A DNA stretch of 64,000 bases from Janthinobacterium sp. GTDB lineage: Bacteria > Pseudomonadota > Gammaproteobacteria > Burkholderiales > Burkholderiaceae_D. Both the position numbers and the translations under genes were made by a program. The stretch is taken from contig NZ_RFSK01000011.1 in the NCBI RefSeq assembly GCF_009923995.1, positions 62,001 through 126,000 on the forward strand. The letters are read 5' to 3'. Position 1 is the stretch's first letter. Every line of letters begins with the position of its first letter. The notes under the pieces were generated by a model, which saw only the letters and a program-made list of their open reading frames with translations, was not told the origin of the DNA and did not search any database. Of this stretch, positions 107 to 26,726 are shown piece after piece.

Positions 107-865
107 TCAGCCAGCCAGGCGCCGGCACAGCTGTTGAATCACGGCAAACGCGTACGGCGACGCGACCGTCTGCACGAAACGCATGAAGTCGACGGCCGCC
201 TCTTCGTTGGCATTGTCGGAAACGGTGCGCATGACCGTAAACGGCACGCCCAGCTCAAAACACACTTGCGCCACGGCCGCGCCTTCCATCTCGAGGGCCA
301 GCAAATCGGGCAAATCCGCCTTCAATTGCCGCACCTGCGCGGCGCTGCTGATGAACTGGTCGCCGCTGGCGATCATGCCGCGGTGCACTTGCGCGTGCTG
401 CAAGCCAAATTCCACGACCTCGGCTGGCTTGAGCACGCTGGAAACATCGTCACGCAGGAAATCGGCGGCGGCGCCAGCCAGCTGCGTGCTCAATTCCCGG
501 TCCGTGGCAAAACGCTGCAGTCCCGTCAGCGGCACTTCGAAGCGGGGAAACAGAGGGCGGGCATCCATATCGTGCTGCAACAGCGCTTCGGCCACGACGA
601 TATCGCCCACTTTCACGTGTTTATCCCCGCTGCCGGCCACGCCCGTGAAGACGATGTGGGTAACTCCGTACTTTTCCACAAGGATGGAAGCCGTCATGGC
701 GGCGGCAACCTTGCCCAGACGCGACAGGACGCACACAGCGTCGATATTCCACAGGGTCCCCAGGGTGTAGTCGCGCATGCCGTGTGAACGCCTCTGGGGG
801 CCTTGCATGGCTTCTACCAGCCCCTGCTGTTCTTCGTGCAAGGCACTGATGATGCCTAAACGCAT
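107..865 (-). CDS. 5'-methylthioadenosine/S-adenosylhomocysteine nucleosidase family protein
   Basis: This is a PNP_UDP_1-fold nucleosidase of about 252 residues, close to the usual 230-250. The family hydrolyses the glycosidic bond of MTA or SAH in the cytoplasm. The start MRLGIISALHEEQQGL aligns with the beginning of E. coli Pfs. The core VFTGVAGSGD is the family's GxAG loop, and ALEMEGAAVAQVC holds the substrate-binding Met-Glu pair. The catalytic Asp is probably in the later TVSDNA segment. I chose the ATG at 865 because homology begins there. An ATG at 883 and a TTG at 913 are in frame, and none has a good ribosome site, so the start is uncertain. The gene reads away from the origin region. 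It could also be a broader-specificity nucleoside phosphorylase. Confidence 0.85.
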   Translation of the reverse strand: MRLGIISALHEEQQGLVEAMQGPQRRSHGMRDYTLGTLWNIDAVCVLSRLGKVAAAMTASILVEKYGVTHIVFTGVAGSGDKHVKVGDIVVAEALLQHDMDARPLFPRFEVPLTGLQRFATDRELSTQLAGAAADFLRDDVSSVLKPAEVVEFGLQHAQVHRGMIASGDQFISSAAQVRQLKADLPDLLALEMEGAAVAQVCFELGVPFTVMRTVSDNANEEAAVDFMRFVQTVASPYAFAVIQQLCRRLAG

Positions 866-1000
866 TTTTTTAGGTGAATTCATGCTGTTTTTACAGGTTT
901 TCAGGATTGCCAAACGGTTTTCATGGCGAAAACAGCTATTCCGGTGACTTTTCTACCGTGCGCGTTTGTCTCTGTGTTTTAAATAAAGATGTATACATAA

Positions 1001-1198
1001 AAATAGTAGTGATAGTAAACGGCCATTTTTCTGTGGATAAGTCGGTATACCGTATAAAAATCATCGACTTGGCGTACAAAAAAGTAGGCGCACAAGCATT
1101 GTATCTACGGAGGACTTGTTTGGGATAAAAATCGGCTTGTGGACAAAGAACGACTTTTCCCACATCTCATCCTGTGGATATGCAGGCACTTATCCACA
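1001..1198 (+). other. Origin module 1: DnaA-trio run plus DnaA boxes
   Basis: The triplet run at 1003-1020 (ATAGTAGTGATAGTAAAC) reads as 3'-GAT/AGT/GAT/GAT-5' triplets on the complementary strand, as in bacterial basal unwinding systems. After an 11-bp spacer comes the perfect box TGTGGATAA (1032-1040). At 1173-1181 (TGTGGATAT) and 1190-1198 (TTATCCACA) is a facing box pair with starts 17 bp apart. An extra 8/9 box, TGTGGACAA, lies at 1138-1146. Confidence 0.8.
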
Positions 1199-1464
1199 CC
1201 GGCAAGCAAAAATCACGGATTTTCTTGCTGTCGTGGCATGTTTGACGCGCTTCACTGTCCCCCATGCTTGTCGGGCAATCCACCTTGAACGAACACGAGC
1301 GCTGTTCTTGCACGGACCTTGGCATCCAGGTGATTCCTGGAAGACGGTTTGGCAGTGGGTCTGAGTGTCGCCGTTGGCTTTTTTTTTTGGTCGTTTTTGC
1401 TTGTTTTTTGGAAATATCCCCGGACTTCCGTTTTTTTTGTCGGTTTACAATAGATCTATATATA

Positions 1465-1662
1465 AAAATAGTAGTAATAGTAAACGCGTTTTTTTCTGTG
1501 GATAAGTCGCCTTTTTTCAACAGGATCAAGCGTTTACGTGAAAAATAAAGCGTGCATAATCGCTGTATCGCGCGAGGAGCAAAATTGTATAAAATGCGGG
1601 CCTGCGCATAACTTCGTGTTTACTCACAAGTCATCCTGTGGATATCAAGTGACTTATCCACA
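1465..1662 (+). other. Origin module 2: DnaA-trio run plus DnaA boxes
   Basis: The triplet run at 1468-1485 (ATAGTAGTAATAGTAAAC) is the cleanest of the three. An 11-bp spacer follows, then the perfect box TGTGGATAA at 1497-1505. The facing pair TGTGGATAT (1637-1645) and TTATCCACA (1654-1662) keeps the 17-bp start-to-start distance and lies 140 bp from the first box. The sequence between the boxes is largely different from module 1. Confidence 0.8.
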
Positions 1663-1942
1663 ATCGCTTCAAATTCCCCCTCTTTTCGACGTCGAATGGC
1701 TGGCTGGCAAGATGCCTGGCCAGGCCGGTTGACAATTCTATTTTGCGAAACGGTTTGGCAGTGCTGTTGGCGTGATGTCGGCCGTGCCGGTTTTCGTCGC
1801 TCAGTTGTTGGCTCGATTTTTTTTTGTCAGTGAACGCCGTTCGTCGGCTTTTTTTTTGACGACAAGCGGGCGAAGCTGCTTGACGGAGAAGGGCAGGCAA
1901 AACGTGTCTTGTCGGGTTTACCTTAACAAGATCGTATACAAG

Positions 1943-2140
1943 AATAGTAATAGTAGTTAACGGCGGCAACTTCTGTGGATAAGTCCTGATTTATCCTTGT
2001 AAACAATCGCTTGGCGTACGGATAAGCGCTGAGTAAGCGTTGTATGTGGCCGGGATGGTTTTGGGATAAAAAATAGCCGCTGAAAAAAATTTTCGTTTAC
2101 TCACATATCGTACCTGTGGATATCCATACGCTTATCCACA
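1943..2140 (+). other. Origin module 3: DnaA-trio run plus DnaA boxes
   Basis: The triplet run at 1943-1961 (AATAGTAATAGTAGTTAAC) is followed by a 12-bp spacer and the perfect box TGTGGATAA at 1974-1982. The facing pair TGTGGATAT (2115-2123) and TTATCCACA (2132-2140) is again 17 bp start to start and 141 bp from the first box. A TTGGCGTAC block at 2011 and a TTGGGATAAAA block at 2061 are shared with module 1 (1069 and 1120). Confidence 0.8.
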
Positions 2141-2362
2141 GCTTGCAGCCCCTGTGCGGGGACGATTTTTGGCTGCCGAAACGGCGCGTTGCTGCGCGGA
2201 TCATGGAAGCCCGACGATTAATGTCGCCCTGGGCCGGCACTGGTGGTAATCTCACTGCGGCTCAGCAGCCATGCATGCATGAAGAAAGACAGACTCTGGT
2301 AACGGGACGCGGCGGGGAGACACGCTGCGCGACAGCTTGATGGCATACCGAAAGGAGCTTCA

Positions 2363-3988
2363 TTGGAATCGGCAGGCGAATACGACTACATCATCGTGGG
2401 CGGCGGTACGGCAGGTTGCGTGCTGGCCAACCGGCTCACGCGCGACAAGGATGCCAACGTGTTACTCGTGGAAGCGGGTGGCAAGGATGACTATGTGTGG
2501 ATACATATCCCCGTCGGCTATCTGCATTGCATCGGCAATCCCCGCACGGACTGGCTGTATTCCACGCAGGCGGACGCGGGCCTGGGCGGACGCAGCCTGA
2601 TGTATCCCCGCGGAAAAGTACTGGGCGGCAGTTCTTCCATCAACGGCATGATCTACATGCGCGGCCAGGCCGGCGATTACGATCACTGGGCCGACCTGAC
2701 GGACGACGCTTCCTGGCGCTGGGACAAAGTCTTGCCGCTATTTAAGCAAAGCGAGGATTATTACGGCGGCGCCTCGGAAAACCATGGCGTGGGCGGTGAA
2801 TGGCGCGTGGAAAAACAGCGCCTGTCGTGGGATATCCTGAATGCGTTCCGCGATGCGGCGCAGCAGGTCGGCATCCCGAAAACCAGCGATTTCAATGGCG
2901 GCGACAATAGCGGCAGCGCGTATTTCGACGTCAACCAGCGCCGTGGCATCCGCTGGAATACCTCGAAAGCGTTCTTGAAACCGGCGGCCCGGCGGCCGAA
3001 CCTGACCATCATGACGGGTTGCCACGTGGAACGCCTGTTGCTGGAAACGACAGAATCGGGCCCGCGCTGCACGGGCGTCGTGTTTACGGGCGGCGGCACG
3101 CAGTGGCAGGCGACGGCGCGGCGGGAAACCCTGCTGACGGCGGGCGCCATCGGCTCGCCCCAGTTGCTGCAACTGTCCGGCATCGGTCCGGCCGCCTTGC
3201 TGCAGCAGCACGGCATCGTTCCCGTACTGGATTCCGCTGGCGTGGGCGGCAATCTGCAGGACCATCTGCAGCTGCGCATGGTGTTTAAGGTACAGGGCGT
3301 CAAGACCTTGAACGTGATGGCCAGCAATCTCGTCGGCAAGATGCAGATCGGCTTGCAGTATGCGCTGTTCCAGAGCGGGCCCATGTCGATGGCGCCGTCG
3401 CAGCTGGGGGCGTTCGCCAAGTCCGACCCGCAGCAAGCCACGCCGAACCTGCAATACCACGTGCAGCCGCTGTCGCTGGATAAATTCGGCGAGCCGCTGC
3501 ATGCGTTTCCCGCGTTTACAGCCAGCGTCTGCAATCTGCGTCCCACCTCGCGCGGCCATGTGCACCTCGCCTCGGCCGACAGCTACGCGGCGCCGAAGAT
3601 CGTGCCCAATTACCTGAGTACCGAGCAGGACCGCGCCGTGGCGGCCGATGCCTTGCGCCTGACGCGGGCCATCGCCGCCGCGCCGGCGCTCAAGCGGTTT
3701 GCGCCGCAGGAATACAAGCCGGGCGTGCAATTCCAGAGCCAGGAAGAACTGGCGCAGGCGGCCAGCCAGATCGGCACCACCATCTTCCACCCGGTGGGCA
3801 CGTGCCGCATGGGCGTGGCCAGCGATCCGTCGAGCGTTGTCGACAGCACCCTGCGCGTGCTCGGCGTGGCGGGTCTGCGCGTCGTCGATGCGTCCATCAT
3901 GCCGTACATCACGTCGGGCAATACCAACTCGCCCACCGTGATGATCGCGGAAAAAGCGGCGCAAATGATACACGCGGCCTGGAAATAA
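2363..3988 (+). CDS. GMC family FAD-dependent oxidoreductase (choline dehydrogenase-like)
   Basis: This 541-residue glucose-methanol-choline oxidoreductase is of normal length for the family. The FAD-binding GGGTAGCVLANRL lies at residues 13-25, GGSSSINGM at 88-96, and the second signature near TAGAIGSPQLLQLSGIGP. The C-terminal HPVGTCRMG and SGNTNSPTVM segments carry the catalytic His (about 476) and Asn (about 520). It oxidises a primary or secondary alcohol to the carbonyl with FAD; the substrate cannot be read from the sequence. The start is a TTG, chosen because AAAGGAG sits 5 bases upstream and the FAD motif follows at once. No signal peptide is visible, so it is probably cytoplasmic. 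It precedes a Liv-type transporter operon that may import its substrate, but a promoter separates them. Confidence 0.9.
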   Translation: MESAGEYDYIIVGGGTAGCVLANRLTRDKDANVLLVEAGGKDDYVWIHIPVGYLHCIGNPRTDWLYSTQADAGLGGRSLMYPRGKVLGGSSSINGMIYMRGQAGDYDHWADLTDDASWRWDKVLPLFKQSEDYYGGASENHGVGGEWRVEKQRLSWDILNAFRDAAQQVGIPKTSDFNGGDNSGSAYFDVNQRRGIRWNTSKAFLKPAARRPNLTIMTGCHVERLLLETTESGPRCTGVVFTGGGTQWQATARRETLLTAGAIGSPQLLQLSGIGPAALLQQHGIVPVLDSAGVGGNLQDHLQLRMVFKVQGVKTLNVMASNLVGKMQIGLQYALFQSGPMSMAPSQLGAFAKSDPQQATPNLQYHVQPLSLDKFGEPLHAFPAFTASVCNLRPTSRGHVHLASADSYAAPKIVPNYLSTEQDRAVAADALRLTRAIAAAPALKRFAPQEYKPGVQFQSQEELAQAASQIGTTIFHPVGTCRMGVASDPSSVVDSTLRVLGVAGLRVVDASIMPYITSGNTNSPTVMIAEKAAQMIHAAWK

Positions 3989-13599: not shown

Positions 13600-13615
13600 T
13601 GTTCCACGTGAAACA
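13600..13615. promoter_or_regulatory. parS: parS ParB binding site upstream of mnmG
   Basis: TGTTCCACGTGAAACA matches the bacterial parS consensus TGTTTCACGTGAAACA at 15 of 16 positions. It lies in the intergenic region between the sugE leader and the mnmG promoter, 2.9 kb from parA. Confidence 0.88.
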
Positions 13616-13673
13616 GAAACGGCGCTCGCCATGCTCTTGCTGAGTAAAAATTAAGCAAAAATTGGCCCCTGGA

Positions 13674-13702
13674 AGGTTGCGCTTGCAAAAAGACTCTATA
13701 AT
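13674..13702 (+). promoter_or_regulatory. Promoter of mnmG
   Basis: A perfect TATAAT (13697-13702) is preceded by a weak -35 (AGGTTG/GGTTGC at 13674-13680). A leader of about 40 bases follows before the ATG at 13749, which rules out upstream in-frame starts such as 13662. Confidence 0.55.
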
Positions 13703-13748
13703 CGGAGCTCTCTCCTCGCATTTTTACTTGCACTGTTACCTATTTATC

Positions 13749-15686
13749 ATGTTATTTCCTACAGAATTCGACGTCATCGTTGTCGGTGGTGGTCACGCCG
13801 GTACCGAGGCGGCCCTCGCTTCCGCCCGCATGGGACAGAAGACGCTTTTGCTCACGCATAATATCGAGACACTGGGCCAGATGTCGTGCAATCCTTCCAT
13901 CGGCGGCATCGGCAAGGGCCACCTGGTCAAGGAAGTCGATGCCATGGGCGGCGCGATGGCCATCGCCACCGACGAGTCCGGCATTCAGTTCCGCATCCTG
14001 AATTCCTCGAAAGGCCCGGCAGTGCGCGCCACGCGCGCCCAGGCCGACCGTATTTTGTACAAGGCCGCCATCCGTACGCGCCTGGAAAACCAGCCGAACC
14101 TGTGGCTGTTCCAGCAAGCCGTCGATGACTTGATCGTCGAAGGCGACCGCGTCGTCGGCGCCGTGACGCAGATCGGCCTGAAGTTCCTGGCGCGCGCCGT
14201 GGTGCTGACGGCGGGGACTTTCCTCGACGGCAAGATCCACGTGGGCCTGAACAATTACTCGGCCGGCCGCGCCGGCGACCCGCCCGCCATCTCCCTGTCG
14301 GCCCGCCTGAAAGAGCTGAAACTGCCGCAGGGCCGCCTGAAAACGGGCACGCCGCCGCGCATCGACGGCCGCAGCATCGACTTTTCCGTGATGCAGGAAC
14401 AGCCGGGCGACCTCGATCCCGTGCCCGTGTTTTCCGTCATGGGCAACACGGCCATGCACCCGCGCCAGGTGCCGTGCTGGGTCACGCACACGAATAGCCA
14501 GACGCACGACATCATCCGCGCCGGCCTCGACCGCAGCCCCATGTACACGGGCGTCATCGAAGGCGTCGGCCCCCGTTACTGCCCCTCGATCGAGGACAAG
14601 ATCCACCGTTTCTCGGGCAAGGAATCGCACCAGATCTTCCTCGAGCCGGAAGGCTTGACGACGCACGAGTTCTACCCGAACGGCATCTCGACGAGCCTGC
14701 CGTTCGACGTGCAGATCGCCCTGGTGCAGTCGATGAAGGGTATGGAAAACGCCCACATCCTGCGTCCCGGCTATGCCATCGAATACGACTATTTCGACCC
14801 GCGCGGCTTGAAAGCCTCGCTGGAAACGAAGGCCGTGGCCGGCCTGTTCTTTGCCGGCCAGATCAACGGCACCACGGGCTACGAGGAAGCGGCCGCGCAA
14901 GGCATGCTGGCGGGCCTGAATGCGGCCTTGCTGACGCAGGACAAGGACGCCTGGGTGCCGGGCCGCTCCGAGGCCTATCTGGGCGTGCTGGTCGACGACC
15001 TGATCACGCAGGGCGTGCAGGAGCCGTACCGCATGTTTACCAGCCGCGCCGAGTACCGTCTGAGCCTGCGCGAAGACAATGCCGACATGCGCCTGACGGA
15101 AATCGGCCGCGCCCTGGGTTGCGTCGGCGACGCCCAGTGGCAAGCGTTCGAGACCAAGCGCGAAGCGGTGGCGCTGGAACTGGAGCGCCTGCGTTCCACG
15201 TGGGTCAACCCGCGCATCCTGGCGGCCGCCGAGTCGGAGCGCATCGTCGGCCAGGCCATCGAGCGCGAATACTCGCTGGCGGACCTGCTGCGCCGTCCGA
15301 ACGTCGCCTACGACACCCTGATGAGCATGACGGGCATGGAAGGCCAGGCCCTGGCCGGCCCCGGCGTGGAAGACGCGGCCGTGCGCGAACAGGTGGAAAT
15401 CCAGCTCAAATACGCGGGCTACATCGAGCGCCAGAGCAAGGAAATCGAGCGCCACGAACACTATGAGAACCTGGCCTTGCCGGAAGGTTTTAACTACCTG
15501 GACATCGGTGCGCTGTCGGTCGAAGTGCGGCAAAAACTCGACAAGCAGCGCCCGGAAACCCTGGGCCAGGCATCGCGCATTTCCGGCGTGACGCCGGCGG
15601 CGATTTCGCTGCTGTTGGTCCACCTGAAAAAGCGCGGCTTCGGTGCCGCGCAGACCACCACTTTAAAGGACGAGGTTGTTGAATGA
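13749..15686 (+). CDS. mnmG: tRNA uridine-5-carboxymethylaminomethyl(34) synthesis enzyme MnmG (GidA)
   Basis: This 645-residue FAD protein works with MnmE to install cmnm5/nm5 on the wobble uridine of several tRNAs. The start [20 protein letters not shown] is the canonical FAD-binding N-terminus. It also has [29 protein letters not shown]-type ([17 protein letters not shown]), [18 protein letters not shown] and the C-terminal helical MnmE-binding domain ending [15 protein letters not shown] chose the ATG at 13749 since homology begins there and the TATAAT promoter lies upstream. Its stop overlaps the rsmG ATG (ATGA). It begins the origin-proximal mnmG-rsmG-parA-parB block conserved in many bacteria. 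Confidence 0.97.
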
Positions 15687-16327
15687 AGCAGTTTGACCGG
15701 GCGCTACTGGCCCCCATTTTGAATGAAGGCATCGCCGCGCTGGGCCTGGAGCTGAGCGCGGATCAGACGGAAAAACTGCTCGATTACCTGGCCTTGCTGG
15801 CCAAATGGAACAGCGTGTACAACCTGACGTCGGTGCGCGATCCCCTGCAGATGCTGACCCTGCACGTGCTCGATTCGCTGGCGGCCGTGCCGGCCTTCGC
15901 TGAAGCGAAAAACGTGCTCGACGTGGGTGCCGGCGGCGGCTTGCCGGGCATGGTCCTGGCCATCGCGCGGCCCGATATCAAGGTGTCGATGATCGACACC
16001 GTGCATAAAAAGACGGCCTTTTTGACGCAGGTGAAGGCGGAACTGGGACTTTCCAACGTCACCGTGTACACGAAACGGGTGGAACAGCTGGAAGTGGCGC
16101 AAAAATTCGACGTCATCACCTCGCGCGCCTTTGCCGACCTGTCCGACTTCGTCAACTGGTCGAACCACGTGCTGGCCGAGGGCGGGCAATTCATCGCCTT
16201 GAAAGGGGTGGCGCCACCGGACGAGCGGGAGAGACTGCCGGCAGACTGGCAAGTGAGGGAATTGCGGCCGATCCAGGTGCCAGGGCTAAATGCAGAGCGT
16301 CATCTGGTCTTTATAGCAAGAATTTAA
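15683..16327 (+). CDS. rsmG: 16S rRNA (guanine(527)-N7)-methyltransferase RsmG (GidB)
   Basis: This 214-residue class I SAM methyltransferase makes m7G527 in 16S rRNA. The family N-terminal helix contains [14 protein letters not shown], and the SAM motif is [18 protein letters not shown] near residue 75. [14 protein letters not shown] is the conserved catalytic-region segment. It is translationally coupled to mnmG through a 4-base overlap. Downstream is a 168-bp gap with an unusual 9-bp repeat array, so parAB may have separate transcription. Confidence 0.97.
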
Positions 16328-16336
16328 AGACCTGAA

Positions 16337-16435
16337 AATTAAACGGTATAAATAGTATAAACAGTTTATACGGTATAAATTATATAAACCGTATAAACGA
16401 TTTATATCGTATAAATGAAATAAACAGTATAAATC
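16337..16435. repeat. AT-rich 9-bp repeat array upstream of parA
   Basis: Eleven contiguous 9-mers of the type GTATAAA(C/T)N run from 16337 to 16435 with no slippage. Examples are GTATAAACA at 16355, GTATAAACG at 16391 and GTATAAATC at 16427. Units 4 (GTTTATACG, 16364) and 8 (ATTTATATC, 16400) are inverted, giving a higher-order 36-bp period. A degenerate twelfth unit (GTTTCGGAT, 16436) begins like an inverted one. The array fills the space between rsmG and the parA leader. It could be an array of repressor or ParA sites, a promoter cluster (TATAAA is -10-like) or an easily melted region. Confidence 0.85.
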
Positions 16436-16495
16436 GTTTCGGATAAATGCCGGGGCGCACGATGAAGTTTGCATCTCTTTACAACTAGAAGATAC

Positions 16496-17266
16496 ATGGC
16501 CAAAATTTTTTGTGTAGCAAATCAAAAGGGTGGTGTTGGTAAAACCACAACAAGTGTCAACCTCTCCGCCGGTCTGGCCAAGTTGAACCAGCGCGTGCTG
16601 CTGGTCGACCTCGACCCGCAGGGCAATGCGACCATGGGCGCCGGCATCAACAAGGCCGGCCTGAAGGCGTCGACCTATGAAGTGATGCTGGGCGAGTCCG
16701 ATGTCAAAACGGCACGCCAGCGTTCGGAAGCGGGGCGCTTCGATGTCTTGCCGTCGAACCGCGAGCTGGCCGGCGCGGAAGTGGAGATGGTCGAACTGGA
16801 CAACCGCGAACGCCGCCTGAAGGATGCGCTGGCCGAAGTGGACGCGGAATATGACTTCATCCTGGTTGATTGCCCGCCGGCATTATCGATGCTGACCCTG
16901 AACGGCCTGTGCGCCGCGCATGGCGTGATCATCCCGATGCAGTGCGAGTACTACGCGCTGGAAGGCTTGTCCGACCTGGTCAACACCATCAAGAAGGTGC
17001 ACGCCAACCTGAACCCGGATCTGAAGATCATCGGCCTGTTGCGCGTGATGTTCGATCCACGCATGACATTATCGCAACAAGTGTCGGCGCAGCTGGAGCA
17101 GCACTTCGGCGACAAGGTCTTCAATACCATCATCCCGCGCAACGTGCGCCTGGCCGAAGCGCCATCGTACGGCTTGCCCGGCGTCACCTTCGACCCCAGC
17201 TCGAAAGGGGCCCAGGCCTATATCGCCTTCGGCGCCGAGATGGTCGAACGCATCAAACATATGTAA
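16496..17266 (+). CDS. parA: Chromosome partitioning ATPase ParA (Soj)
   Basis: This 256-residue deviant Walker-type ATPase uses ATP-dependent DNA binding to move ParB-parS complexes and segregate the origin region. The deviant Walker A is NQKGGVGKTTTSVNLS at residues 9-24, with the signature Lys. The A' motif is VLLVDLDPQGNAT, Walker B is FILVDCPPALSML, and the C-terminal NVRLAEAPSYG is typical of chromosomal Soj proteins. I chose the ATG at 16496 because the conserved N-terminus begins there; the ribosome site (AGAAG) is weak. There is no N-terminal HTH, which fits a chromosomal rather than plasmid ParA. Confidence 0.97.
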   Translation: MAKIFCVANQKGGVGKTTTSVNLSAGLAKLNQRVLLVDLDPQGNATMGAGINKAGLKASTYEVMLGESDVKTARQRSEAGRFDVLPSNRELAGAEVEMVELDNRERRLKDALAEVDAEYDFILVDCPPALSMLTLNGLCAAHGVIIPMQCEYYALEGLSDLVNTIKKVHANLNPDLKIIGLLRVMFDPRMTLSQQVSAQLEQHFGDKVFNTIIPRNVRLAEAPSYGLPGVTFDPSSKGAQAYIAFGAEMVERIKHM

Positions 17267-17330
17267 ACAAGGGGCGAGCGTCTGCAGAATATGATGTAAG
17301 CGCTTACTCTGAAAACACGATTAGGACAGC

Positions 17331-18215
17331 ATGGCTACGAAAAAATTAAAAGGACTGGGTCGCGGACTCGACGCCCTCCTGGGCGGCGGGGGCGACTTCG
17401 CCAGTGCGGAAACGCATCAACCGTCGAACTTGCCCGTGTCACAAATGCAAGCCGGCAAATACCAGCCGCGCACGCGCATGGACGAAGGGGCCCTGAATGA
17501 ACTGGCCGCCTCGATCAAGGCGCAGGGACTGATGCAGCCGATCCTGGTGCGCCCGATCGGGCAGGACACCTTGAGCGGACTTGTCAAATATGAAATCATC
17601 GCCGGCGAACGCCGCTTCCGCGCCTCGCAGCTGGCCGGCCTGACGGAAGTGCCGGTCCTCGTGCGCGACGTGGATGACCTGGCCGCCGCCGCCATGGCGC
17701 TGATCGAGAACATCCAGCGCGAAGACTTGAATCCCCTGGAAGAGGCGCAGGGCATCCACCGCCTGATCGCCGACTTCAGTTTCACGCATGAGCAAGCGGC
17801 CACTGCGCTGGGACGCTCGCGCAGCGCTGTCTCCAACCTGCTGCGCCTGATGAACCTGGCCAGTCCCGTGCAGACCATGCTGATGGCCGGCGATATCGAC
17901 ATGGGCCATGCGCGCGCGCTGCTGGCCGTCGATGCGGCCAGCCAGATCACCCTGGCCAACCAGGTGGTGGCCAAGCGCCTGTCCGTGCGCGAGACGGAAA
18001 AGCTCGTCACCCGCACGGTGGAGGAAGCGGCCAACCCGGTCGAACCGCGGCACAAGGAAAAGTCCGGCGATATCGCGCGCCTGGAAGAAGAGCTGTCCGA
18101 TGCCCTGGCCACGCCCGTGGTGTTCAAGATGGGCAACAAAGGCCGTGGTCAACTGGTGATCGATTTTGCCGATCTTGACGTGCTGGATGGATTGCTGACC
18201 CGTTTGCGTGGTTAA
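17331..18215 (+). CDS. parB: Chromosome partitioning protein ParB (Spo0J)
   Basis: This 294-residue ParB has the N-terminal RGLGRGLDALLGG motif that contacts ParA. The CTPase domain holds LVKYEIIAGERRFRASQLAGL, and NIQREDLNPLEEAQG follows. An HTH around HEQAATALGRSRSAVSNLLRL binds parS, and a C-terminal dimerisation domain ends the protein. It binds the TGTTCCACGTGAAACA-type sites found at 8380-13615 and spreads along DNA as a CTP clamp. It is 64 bases from parA. Confidence 0.97.
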   Translation: MATKKLKGLGRGLDALLGGGGDFASAETHQPSNLPVSQMQAGKYQPRTRMDEGALNELAASIKAQGLMQPILVRPIGQDTLSGLVKYEIIAGERRFRASQLAGLTEVPVLVRDVDDLAAAAMALIENIQREDLNPLEEAQGIHRLIADFSFTHEQAATALGRSRSAVSNLLRLMNLASPVQTMLMAGDIDMGHARALLAVDAASQITLANQVVAKRLSVRETEKLVTRTVEEAANPVEPRHKEKSGDIARLEEELSDALATPVVFKMGNKGRGQLVIDFADLDVLDGLLTRLRG

Positions 18216-18895: not shown

Positions 18896-19726
<831 letters not shown>

Positions 19727-22746: not shown

Positions 22747-22808
22747 GCGGCCAGGCGGCGCCCACCTTGAGTGAGGTGCCGCCCTACGCGCAGAAGGAGT
22801 AAGGACTC

Positions 22809-25114
<2,306 letters not shown>

Positions 25115-25658: not shown

Positions 25659-26726
25659 CTATTCCTGGCGCTTCTGCCTGCTCCTTTCCTGCCCCGCCTT
25701 CAATATCGTCTTCCACCTGGCGCGCGCGCTGATGCGCTCGAGCGGCGTTGCTTCGCTGCGCCGGGCGTCGCGCAGCAGCTTGTGATAATTGCACAGGCGG
25801 TCCGCATCGACGGCGCCGCGCACGGCGCAACCGGGTTCGCTCGCATGCCGGCAATCGCGGAACTGGCACGTGGCAGCGAGTGCCGCGATGTCGTCGAAGG
25901 TGGCGGCCACGGTCTCGGCACCGGCGTCGGCCTGCCAGCTGCGCAAGCCCGGCGTATCGATGATGCAAGCGCCGCCCGCACACAGGTGCAGTGAGCGGGC
26001 CGTCGTCGTGTGGCGGCCGCGGCCATCGCCGTGGCGCACGCCCTGCGTCGATTGCCCCGCTGCGCACAGGGTATTGGTCAGGCTGGATTTGCCGGCGCCC
26101 GATGAACCGAGCAGCACCAGGGTCTGGCCCGCATCCAGCCAGGGTTCCAGGATGGCCACGTCATACGCATGGCGCGTATCGACGGCAAACAGGGGCACGT
26201 GGGATGGCAGGCGCTGTTTGAGCAGGCTGAGCTTGCCCGCCACGTCGTCGGCCACGTCGGCCTTGCTGAGTACCACCACGGGGCTGACCCGGGCAGCCAG
26301 CACGATGGCCAGATAGCGTTCCAGCCGGCGCGGGTTGAAGTCCGCGTCCAGCCCCATCACCAGCAGGGCGGTGTCGACATTGTTCGCGAGCACCTGGCGC
26401 CGGCCGTCATTGCCGCGCCGGGCGATTTGCGTGAATGGGGATAAATGCGCCGTTATCCACAGCGCGCCGTGCGCATCGGCTTCGGTGGCGACCCAGTCGC
26501 CGACGGCAAGCACGGTGTCCTGTGCCTGCAAGTCATGCAGCAGGCGCGGCAGGATATGCGCCGGGTGTTCCTGGCTGCCGTCGTGCACGACGATGCTGTC
26601 GCGGTGCACGGCGCTCACGCGCATCAGCTGTGCGGTGGAACAAGGGAAGTCGAGTTGGGCGGCTGCGCTGGCGGTGGCCTGCTGCAGTCCGATGGGGCGT
26701 AGTTGCGCAAAATCGAATGCGATCAT
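25659..26726 (-). CDS. rsgA: Ribosome small subunit-dependent GTPase RsgA (YjeQ)
   Basis: This 355-residue protein has an N-terminal OB-fold, a circularly permuted GTPase and a C-terminal zinc knuckle. It checks 30S maturation. The permuted G-motif order is visible: VVLSKADVAD (G4), then LLGSSGAGKSSLTNTL (G1), then HTTTARSLHL (G2) and IIDTPGLRSW (G3). The zinc ligands are in CQFRDCRHASEPGCAVRGAV. The ATG at 26726 gives normal length. The protein ends KAGQERSRQKRQE, a basic tail. Confidence 0.95.
   Translation of the reverse strand: MIAFDFAQLRPIGLQQATASAAAQLDFPCSTAQLMRVSAVHRDSIVVHDGSQEHPAHILPRLLHDLQAQDTVLAVGDWVATEADAHGALWITAHLSPFTQIARRGNDGRRQVLANNVDTALLVMGLDADFNPRRLERYLAIVLAARVSPVVVLSKADVADDVAGKLSLLKQRLPSHVPLFAVDTRHAYDVAILEPWLDAGQTLVLLGSSGAGKSSLTNTLCAAGQSTQGVRHGDGRGRHTTTARSLHLCAGGACIIDTPGLRSWQADAGAETVAATFDDIAALAATCQFRDCRHASEPGCAVRGAVDADRLCNYHKLLRDARRSEATPLERISARARWKTILKAGQERSRQKRQE

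Follow-up and report, generated by a model that had tools for sequence, protein, structure and literature searches.

Three tandem same-orientation copies of a candidate DnaA/IHF unwinding module at the probable chromosomal origin of Janthinobacterium, far from dnaA

Introduction

Models of replication initiation in bacteria place a single opening site in each origin.

Several described systems resemble parts of the locus analyzed here. The incC BUS of Bacillus subtilis and its homologues, as presented in PMC6669920 and PMC8287927, combine a DnaA box, a short spacer and TAG/TAA-type trios running 3' to 5' from the box. The search rule given in the latter asks for at least three contiguous NAN trios no more than 16 bp from a box with no more than two mismatches, and the program described there ranks candidates to one per origin in more than 99% of genomes (PMC8287927). 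Since a single candidate is kept for each origin, copies would not show. In Escherichia coli, the left region of oriC with R1 and IBS1 is described as needed for unwinding and helicase loading (PMC10380432). The oriC of Thermotoga maritima, according to PMC10316083, has a DUE with two functional modules; its TAG repeats are essential for unwinding, and the helical phasing between box and array matters.

We analyzed a window of 64,000 nt of Janthinobacterium sp. (NZ_RFSK01000011.1, positions 62,001-126,000), whose own genome, a 154-contig draft, is labelled G000 below. An earlier sequence-only reading of this DNA had proposed an origin with three tandem basal unwinding modules. The locus resembles the BUS in its box, short spacer and trios of the same type and polarity; unlike the BUS, it has three copies per origin, each with an IHF-type site and a facing pair of DnaA boxes at a fixed distance. 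With the left half of E. coli oriC (DUE, R1, IBS1 and the left DnaA oligomerisation region) it shares an AT-rich DUE, the TGTGGATAA box and an IHF site at 27 bp, whereas it differs by TAG-type trios in place of the TT[A/G]T(T) motifs, by the pair lying about 141 bp from the box and by the three copies. SeqA control also sets E. coli apart, as SeqA gave no match in the Janthinobacterium genome (G000) in a search that detected the E. coli control. Like the bipartite origins of B. subtilis and Helicobacter pylori, the locus has more than one DnaA-box cluster; as those origins are described in PMC10316083, however, dnaA lies between the clusters and there is one unwinding region, whereas here trio-like repeats accompany each unit and dnaA is hundreds of kb away. 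TAG repeats are also common to T. maritima, but there they belong to two parts of one DUE, in the account of PMC10316083, and here whole modules are repeated.

The component parts are thus already known. For their triplication with a fixed inner geometry we found no description in the literature searched, nor for several unwinding modules in one origin in the open-access literature searched, which is weak evidence of absence.

Results

The whole presumed oriC lies in one intergenic region that holds three modules of the same orientation, each in the order trio-like repeats, perfect DnaA box and facing DnaA-box pair. The features are, in window coordinates:

107-913, minus strand: nucleosidase-type gene flanking the presumed oriC (Pfam PF01048)
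914..2362, no strand: intergenic region with the whole presumed oriC (from the ORF list)
1004..1018, plus strand: trio-like repeats of module 1, 5'-TAG-TAG-TGA-TAG-TAA, bordered by AT-rich DNA; hardly any variation across 38 genomes
1032..1040, minus strand: module 1 putative DnaA box (R1-like), plus strand reads TGTGGATAA
1059..1071, plus strand: module 1 IHF-type site AATCATCGACTTG, differing from WATCAANNNNTTR at one position; offset from the box start 27 bp
1156..1164, plus strand: weak third box of module 1, TTTCCCACA, preceding the facing pair by 17 bp
1173..1198, no strand: module 1 facing DnaA-box pair TGTGGATAT/TTATCCACA, starts 1173/1190
1469..1483, plus strand: module 2 DnaA-trios 5'-TAG-TAG-TAA-TAG-TAA, fitting the strict BUS rule
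1497..1505, minus strand: module 2 putative DnaA box (R1-like), TGTGGATAA on the plus strand
1524..1536, plus strand: module 2 IHF-type site GATCAAGCGTTTA, one mismatch
1620..1628, plus strand: weak third box of module 2, TTACTCACA, preceding the facing pair by 17 bp
1637..1662, no strand: module 2 facing DnaA-box pair TGTGGATAT/TTATCCACA, starts 1637/1654
1945..1956, plus strand: module 3 DnaA-trios 5'-TAG-TAA-TAG-TAG, then TTAAC; spacer to the box 17 bp
1974..1982, minus strand: module 3 putative DnaA box (R1-like), TGTGGATAA on the plus strand
2001..2013, plus strand: module 3 IHF-type site AAACAATCGCTTG, one mismatch
2097..2105, plus strand: weak third box of module 3, TTACTCACA, preceding the facing pair by 18 bp
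2115..2140, no strand: module 3 facing DnaA-box pair TGTGGATAT/TTATCCACA, starts 2115/2132
2363-3988, plus strand: GMC oxidoreductase gene flanking the presumed oriC (Pfam PF00732/PF05199)

Reading the window DNA confirmed the coordinates and spacings of the three modules: the distance from box to pair is 141, 140 and 141 bp in modules 1, 2 and 3, and the paired box starts are 17 bp apart. The triplets, which the sequence-only reading had assigned to the complementary strand, are instead found on the plus strand (the one reading TGTGGATAA), running 3' to 5' away from the box, and the complementary strand has no GAT trios at the trio zones of the three window modules. The same reading gave spacers of 11/11/12 bp, which hold when counted from the end of the conserved TAAAC/TTAAC, but become 13/13/17 bp when counted from the last NAN trio.

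Across the 64-kb window there are 17 matches to TTATCCACA with at most one mismatch against 5.6 expected, a number reached by none of 100 shuffles. The DnaA-box cluster adjoins AT-rich, unstable DNA at the presumed oriC, as is typical of a chromosomal oriC. By nearest-neighbour energies, the trio zones of modules 1, 2 and 3 rank third, first and sixth among the least stable separate 40-bp stretches of the window; the stretch of module 1 is 980-1019, while that of module 2 (1445-1484) overlaps the trios and is the lowest of all. Another facing DnaA-box pair, with starts 17 bp apart and one mismatch in one box, occurs in GC-rich DNA at window positions 26436-26461.

The three modules do not fare equally under the published BUS rule. 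Module 2 satisfies it strictly, with seven NAN trios and a spacer of 13 bp in G000, and does so in 37 of 38 genomes. Module 1 fails because a TGA breaks the run and leaves two trios (4/38 genomes qualify), and module 3 because its run of six trios is separated from the box by 17 bp (1/38, rising to 33/38 when the limit is relaxed to 20 bp), so that both can be called BUS-like only. The description as three basal unwinding modules is therefore sound for module 2 by the published rule and too strong for the other two. These failures argue against three equal unwinding sites and raise the odds of one main site with two helpers. All the same, the repeats of modules 1 and 3 are nearly invariant in the 38 genomes.

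We aligned the three window copies and then 56 modules from 24 family loci, which had been picked by box, trios and a pair at 136-146 bp, the IHF site not being a criterion. A match to the IHF consensus WATCAANNNNTTR with at most two mismatches is found at exactly +27 from the box start in 56/56 modules (none in 13, one in 35 and two in 8). The mean number of mismatches at this position is 0.91 versus 6.0 over 150 offsets, the next-best forward offset having 4.46 and the best reverse one 2.96. In E. coli K-12 oriC (NC_000913) the offset from R1 to the IHF site is also 27 bp, and the E. coli site has two mismatches to the consensus. The modules would thus possess, as a predicted site, the fixed IHF-type site beyond an R1-like box that characterizes an E. 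coli-type left half. An IHF-alpha homologue is present in the genome, above the curated cut-off. When the modules were compared with the same-orientation low-affinity array of E. coli (R5M, tau2, I1, I2), a TGGNNAAAA-like stretch proved conserved, together with a weak box that points the other way.

Within the genus, 39 of 40 genomes were examined, the one omitted being G013 (82% complete), which gave no match. Three complete modules are present in 38 of the 39 loci, the exception being the metagenome assembly G021 with two, and the expectation that close relatives would keep all three is thus borne out. Searching distances of 120-164 bp, we found the pair 141 bp from the box in module 1 and 140 bp in module 2 in 38/38 genomes each, and 141, 140 or 139 bp in module 3 in 29, 8 and 1 of the 38, respectively. 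The linkers, on the other hand, measure 254-364 and 226-933 bp. An inner distance of 139-141 bp across 114 modules, set against linkers of 226-933 bp, supports the selection on geometry proposed by the sequence-only reading.

The alignments point the same way. Cores show 121 indels to 1662 substitutions and linkers 809 to 3085, that is, 0.073 versus 0.262 indels per substitution, in pairwise and hence non-independent comparisons of 37 genomes against the single reference G000. In the 12 most diverged genomes substitution reaches 0.15-0.25 in cores and 0.18-0.23 in linkers; their cores contain 2-18 alignment gaps that cancel out, so that the net length is kept. Throughout the genus there is almost no variation in the trios and box of each copy, and more in the bases between them.

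The three copies of the window are mutually 61-64% identical. Those of Rugamonas rubra match modules 1, 2 and 3 of the window in order, with identities of 0.81, 0.73 and 0.73 versus 0.58-0.65 off the diagonal. Two Duganella loci pair likewise with modules 2 and 3, and Massilia loci show no clear pairing; of the 21 loci in the same comparison that have at least two modules, 15 carry a TTAAC-type copy on the right-hand side. The position-specific identities common to Rugamonas and Duganella indicate that the copies predate the split of these genera, each with its own identity.

We surveyed 126 genomes of the family with a sequence-only module profile (E ≤0.001, with stricter filters), counting matches per genome and not per locus. 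Three matches were obtained in 22 genomes, two in 59, one in 33 and none in 12; two or three matches are hence found in 81/126 family genomes, while outside the family one weaker match is commonest. Scored by the most matches in any genome, 7 of the 44 family genera have three, 18 have two, 16 have one and 3 have none. The tandem modules are conserved in the genus and in a large part of the family. Their arrangement varies: in several Duganella and Rugamonas loci the modules are about 3 kb apart. Separately, two matches are inverted in three other genera (G042:C191:18253-19584, G057:C361:3854-4672 and G153:C1:221809-224813).

In the wider order, 130 genomes were drawn, 126 of them from other families, and searched at E ≤0.01. 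A match was present in 76 of these 126 (one in 61, two or three in 15) and absent from 50. Some of the 15 genomes with multiple matches have them overlapping or far apart, and a neighbouring pair in G482, G487, G417 and G447 means that multiplicity is not unique to the family. Of 17 loci from the other Burkholderiales families, 7 share the trio-box-IHF unit, the IHF site lying at 26-28 bp with at most one mismatch. These families differ in that the match is mostly single and that no facing pair closer than 5 mismatches in 18 positions occurs in the 16 loci with a box. Both places were known in 13 other-family genomes: six of these (G026, G027, G029, G032, G421 and G465) have the match no more than 1 kb from the dnaA domain, and in at least six of the remaining ones the two are at least 17 kb apart. 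An exact-pattern search of the order matched 6 of 250 genomes, one of them outside the family; it missed diverged modules that the profile caught.

As a control we used at least 117 stretches with the exact facing pair, all chosen for holding that pair, and allowed distances of 106-259 bp. Among the matches listed, modules were found in 54 of 58 family stretches, hand-picked from Massilia, Duganella, Pseudoduganella, Rugamonas, Telluria, Undibacterium and other relatives, and their 107 modules all measure 140-143 bp. Likewise among the matches listed, 8/8 further stretches from the family or Burkholderiales (140-142 bp) and 15/15 from the Janthinobacterium group have modules, whereas 0/36 stretches of other taxa have one at 140-143 bp, the two hits in these 36 lying at 154 and 175 bp. 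Twelve distances of 105 bp, which weaker boxes had produced as sub-matches of modules, were discarded, and the recount was made with the lower limit of 106 bp.

G000 being a draft with its dnaA on a different contig, complete relatives were used for GC skew. The sequences looked at were G004 and G015, both of the same genus, the window's own contig, and G144 and G109 from other genera; the skew minimum is at the modules in G004 and G015. In G004 (one contig, 6.31 Mb) the first module box is at 363,233, and the cumulative minimum over 120 contiguous kb, at 362,962, precedes it by about 0.3 kb. Among forty 20-kb samples of this genome, 5/5 before the modules are negative, 16/16 from the modules to 3.52 Mb positive and 16/19 beyond negative, with a second skew turn near the antipode of the modules. 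In the more distant G015 the minimum over 200 contiguous kb, at 5,672,112, falls within the module cluster; 9/9 samples below it are negative and 9/11 at or above it positive. The skew switch foreseen by the sequence-only reading is thus present in these two genomes but not as a clean minimum on the window's own contig, where the lowest cumulative skew lies 50 kb upstream of the modules and only a local dip is seen near them.

Other features of the window on this side of the modules are:

13600..13615, no strand: parS-like 16-mer TGTTCCACGTGAAACA, one mismatch, about 11.5 kb from the modules
13662..18215, plus strand: mnmG-rsmG-parA-parB cluster, a kind often near origins
18917-19726: ATP synthase A-chain gene, after the mnmG-rsmG-parA-parB cluster

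The gene we take to be rsmG was assigned from its sequence. mnmG and parAB are 11-16 kb from the modules, on the opposite side from dnaA. With at most one mismatch allowed, parS was searched in nine genomes: in seven a site lies at 11-14 kb from the modules, in G010 at 44 kb, and G015 has none at this setting. Based on the skew minima in two complete genomes of the genus, the low-stability trio zones and the nearby mnmG/parAB and parS-like site, the claim that this locus is an origin stands, and it is very probably the chromosomal one.

The modules are not close to dnaA, the distance being 301-567 kb in 15/15 same-genus genomes measured. This remoteness, the IHF-type site at +27 and the weak third box had escaped the sequence-only reading. 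The single full-length dnaA match of G000 is on another contig, so the locus departs from the B. subtilis-type bipartite layout with dnaA between box clusters. In 4/4 genomes looked at, a perfect box and one with a mismatch lie immediately upstream of dnaA; those of G000 (contig C47, about 22,794-22,851) probably have a role in dnaA promoter control. In G255 (C1:388-868) the dnaA domain is broken up into two matches that overlap, perhaps by a sequencing or assembly frameshift in this essential gene.

Discussion

We favour, with fair rather than high confidence, a reading in which this oriC lies far from dnaA and comprises three tandem same-orientation copies of a DnaA/IHF unwinding module, more than one of which is probably used, since selection keeps all three copies. 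The module anatomy, the fixed geometry, the separate conservation of each copy and the position of the skew minimum in relatives are read from the DNA, and from them we infer binding by DnaA and IHF, bending, opening and the use of more than one copy. DnaA would bind the R1-like box of each module and IHF would bend the DNA at the site 27 bp on, which would fold back the DnaA that occupies the weak box and, about 141 bp off, the facing pair. DnaA would then extend across the spacer onto the TAG-type trios of the plus strand, melting the AT-rich flank, where the helicase would be loaded. Each module may accordingly be a folded DnaA-IHF-DnaA unit in the style of the E. coli oriC left half, with trios of the TAG type known from B. 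subtilis and T. maritima. The fixed 141 bp fits the importance of box-array phasing in T. maritima. The opening sites of several modules could be alternative or cooperating, and module 2 may be the strongest, as judged by its fit to the published rule. The sequence-only reading had suggested that three modules might provide several initiation points or a fail-safe.

The conserved trios and geometry show selection on each copy, which is no proof that each copy opens. It also speaks against the favoured reading that relatives in the family make do with one or two matches and that 12/126 gave none. A bolder version, in which the three are independently competent unwinding and helicase-loading sites, each able to start replication in vivo, is one we advance tentatively and hold to be doubtful; under it, several genera would have retained a natural multi-start origin in which selection acts on the DnaA-IHF-DnaA geometry as a unit. 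A serious rival, held with a similar degree of doubt, is the idea that there is one real unwinding site, most likely module 2, and that the other two are DnaA- and IHF-binding helper or regulatory arrays, which arose by duplication and were kept for a role in titration, in the turnover of DnaA-ATP or in orisome assembly. It draws strength from module 2 alone fitting the published trio-and-spacer rule (37/38 genomes) and from the varying copy number across the family. Furthermore, the origins of B. subtilis and H. pylori are described as one unwinding region plus a separate DnaA-box region (PMC10316083), and E. coli datA, in the account of PMC10380432, joins an IHF site and DnaA boxes. However, such an array needs neither trios nor a melting zone, and yet the repeats of modules 1 and 3 are among the best-conserved bases, next to a more variable spacer, and the trio zones of all three modules are unusually unstable. 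Alternatively, the modules might form one composite origin, DnaA on the facing pair of one module cooperating with the next and no module sufficing alone. The close tandem packing in the same orientation throughout the genus would suit this arrangement, which nevertheless seems unlikely to us: the geometry is fixed inside the modules and not between them, with linkers of 226-933 bp in the genus and about 3 kb between modules in several Duganella and Rugamonas loci, matches are inverted in G042, G057 and G153, and 33/126 family genomes have a single match.

Two further explanations have very little left in their favour. Local duplication does yield tandem same-orientation copies, and the 61-64% identity among them could suggest a recent event that left extra copies without function. 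This is extremely improbable, and recent neutral duplication was ruled out as a candidate, given the three modules in 38/39 loci, the constant core lengths versus changing linkers, and the copy identities shared with Rugamonas and Duganella. Hardly more probable is a distant DnaA/IHF regulatory site at this locus with oriC at dnaA. The two boxes upstream of dnaA (4/4 genomes) and the proximity of match and dnaA domain, within 1 kb, in 6/13 genomes outside the family would be in line with it. In the two complete genomes, though, the skew minima coincide with the modules and dnaA sits well within one arm, and the module profile gives only three matches in G000, none of them near dnaA; GC skew and box content together ruled out oriC at dnaA.

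Returning to the tandem-module origin that we favour, three parallel copies with diverged sequence and constant spacing indicate which parts matter, namely the trios, the box, the IHF site at +27 and the pair at about 141 bp. They also raise the testable question of a bacterial origin opening at several places. The copies offer a direct route to asking how once-per-cycle control operates if several sites might open, or what role two conserved near-copies have next to a single main site. In practical terms, the modules flag likely origin positions in a group where proximity to dnaA would mislead. Several of these genomes are numbered from dnaA, which in the 15 same-genus genomes measured is 301-567 kb off the likely origin.

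A separate observation concerns the DNA upstream of the window. About 13-14 kb from the origin, at -13,146 to -12,609 relative to the window, DnaA boxes that all point the same way form a dense array, flanked by what are presumably an AsnC/Lrp-like gene and glmU, judging from the ORFs. The array could be a DnaA titration site or a datA/DARS-like site, and it is present in 7/7 same-genus genomes examined (G000, G004, G009, G010, G015, G018 and G024).
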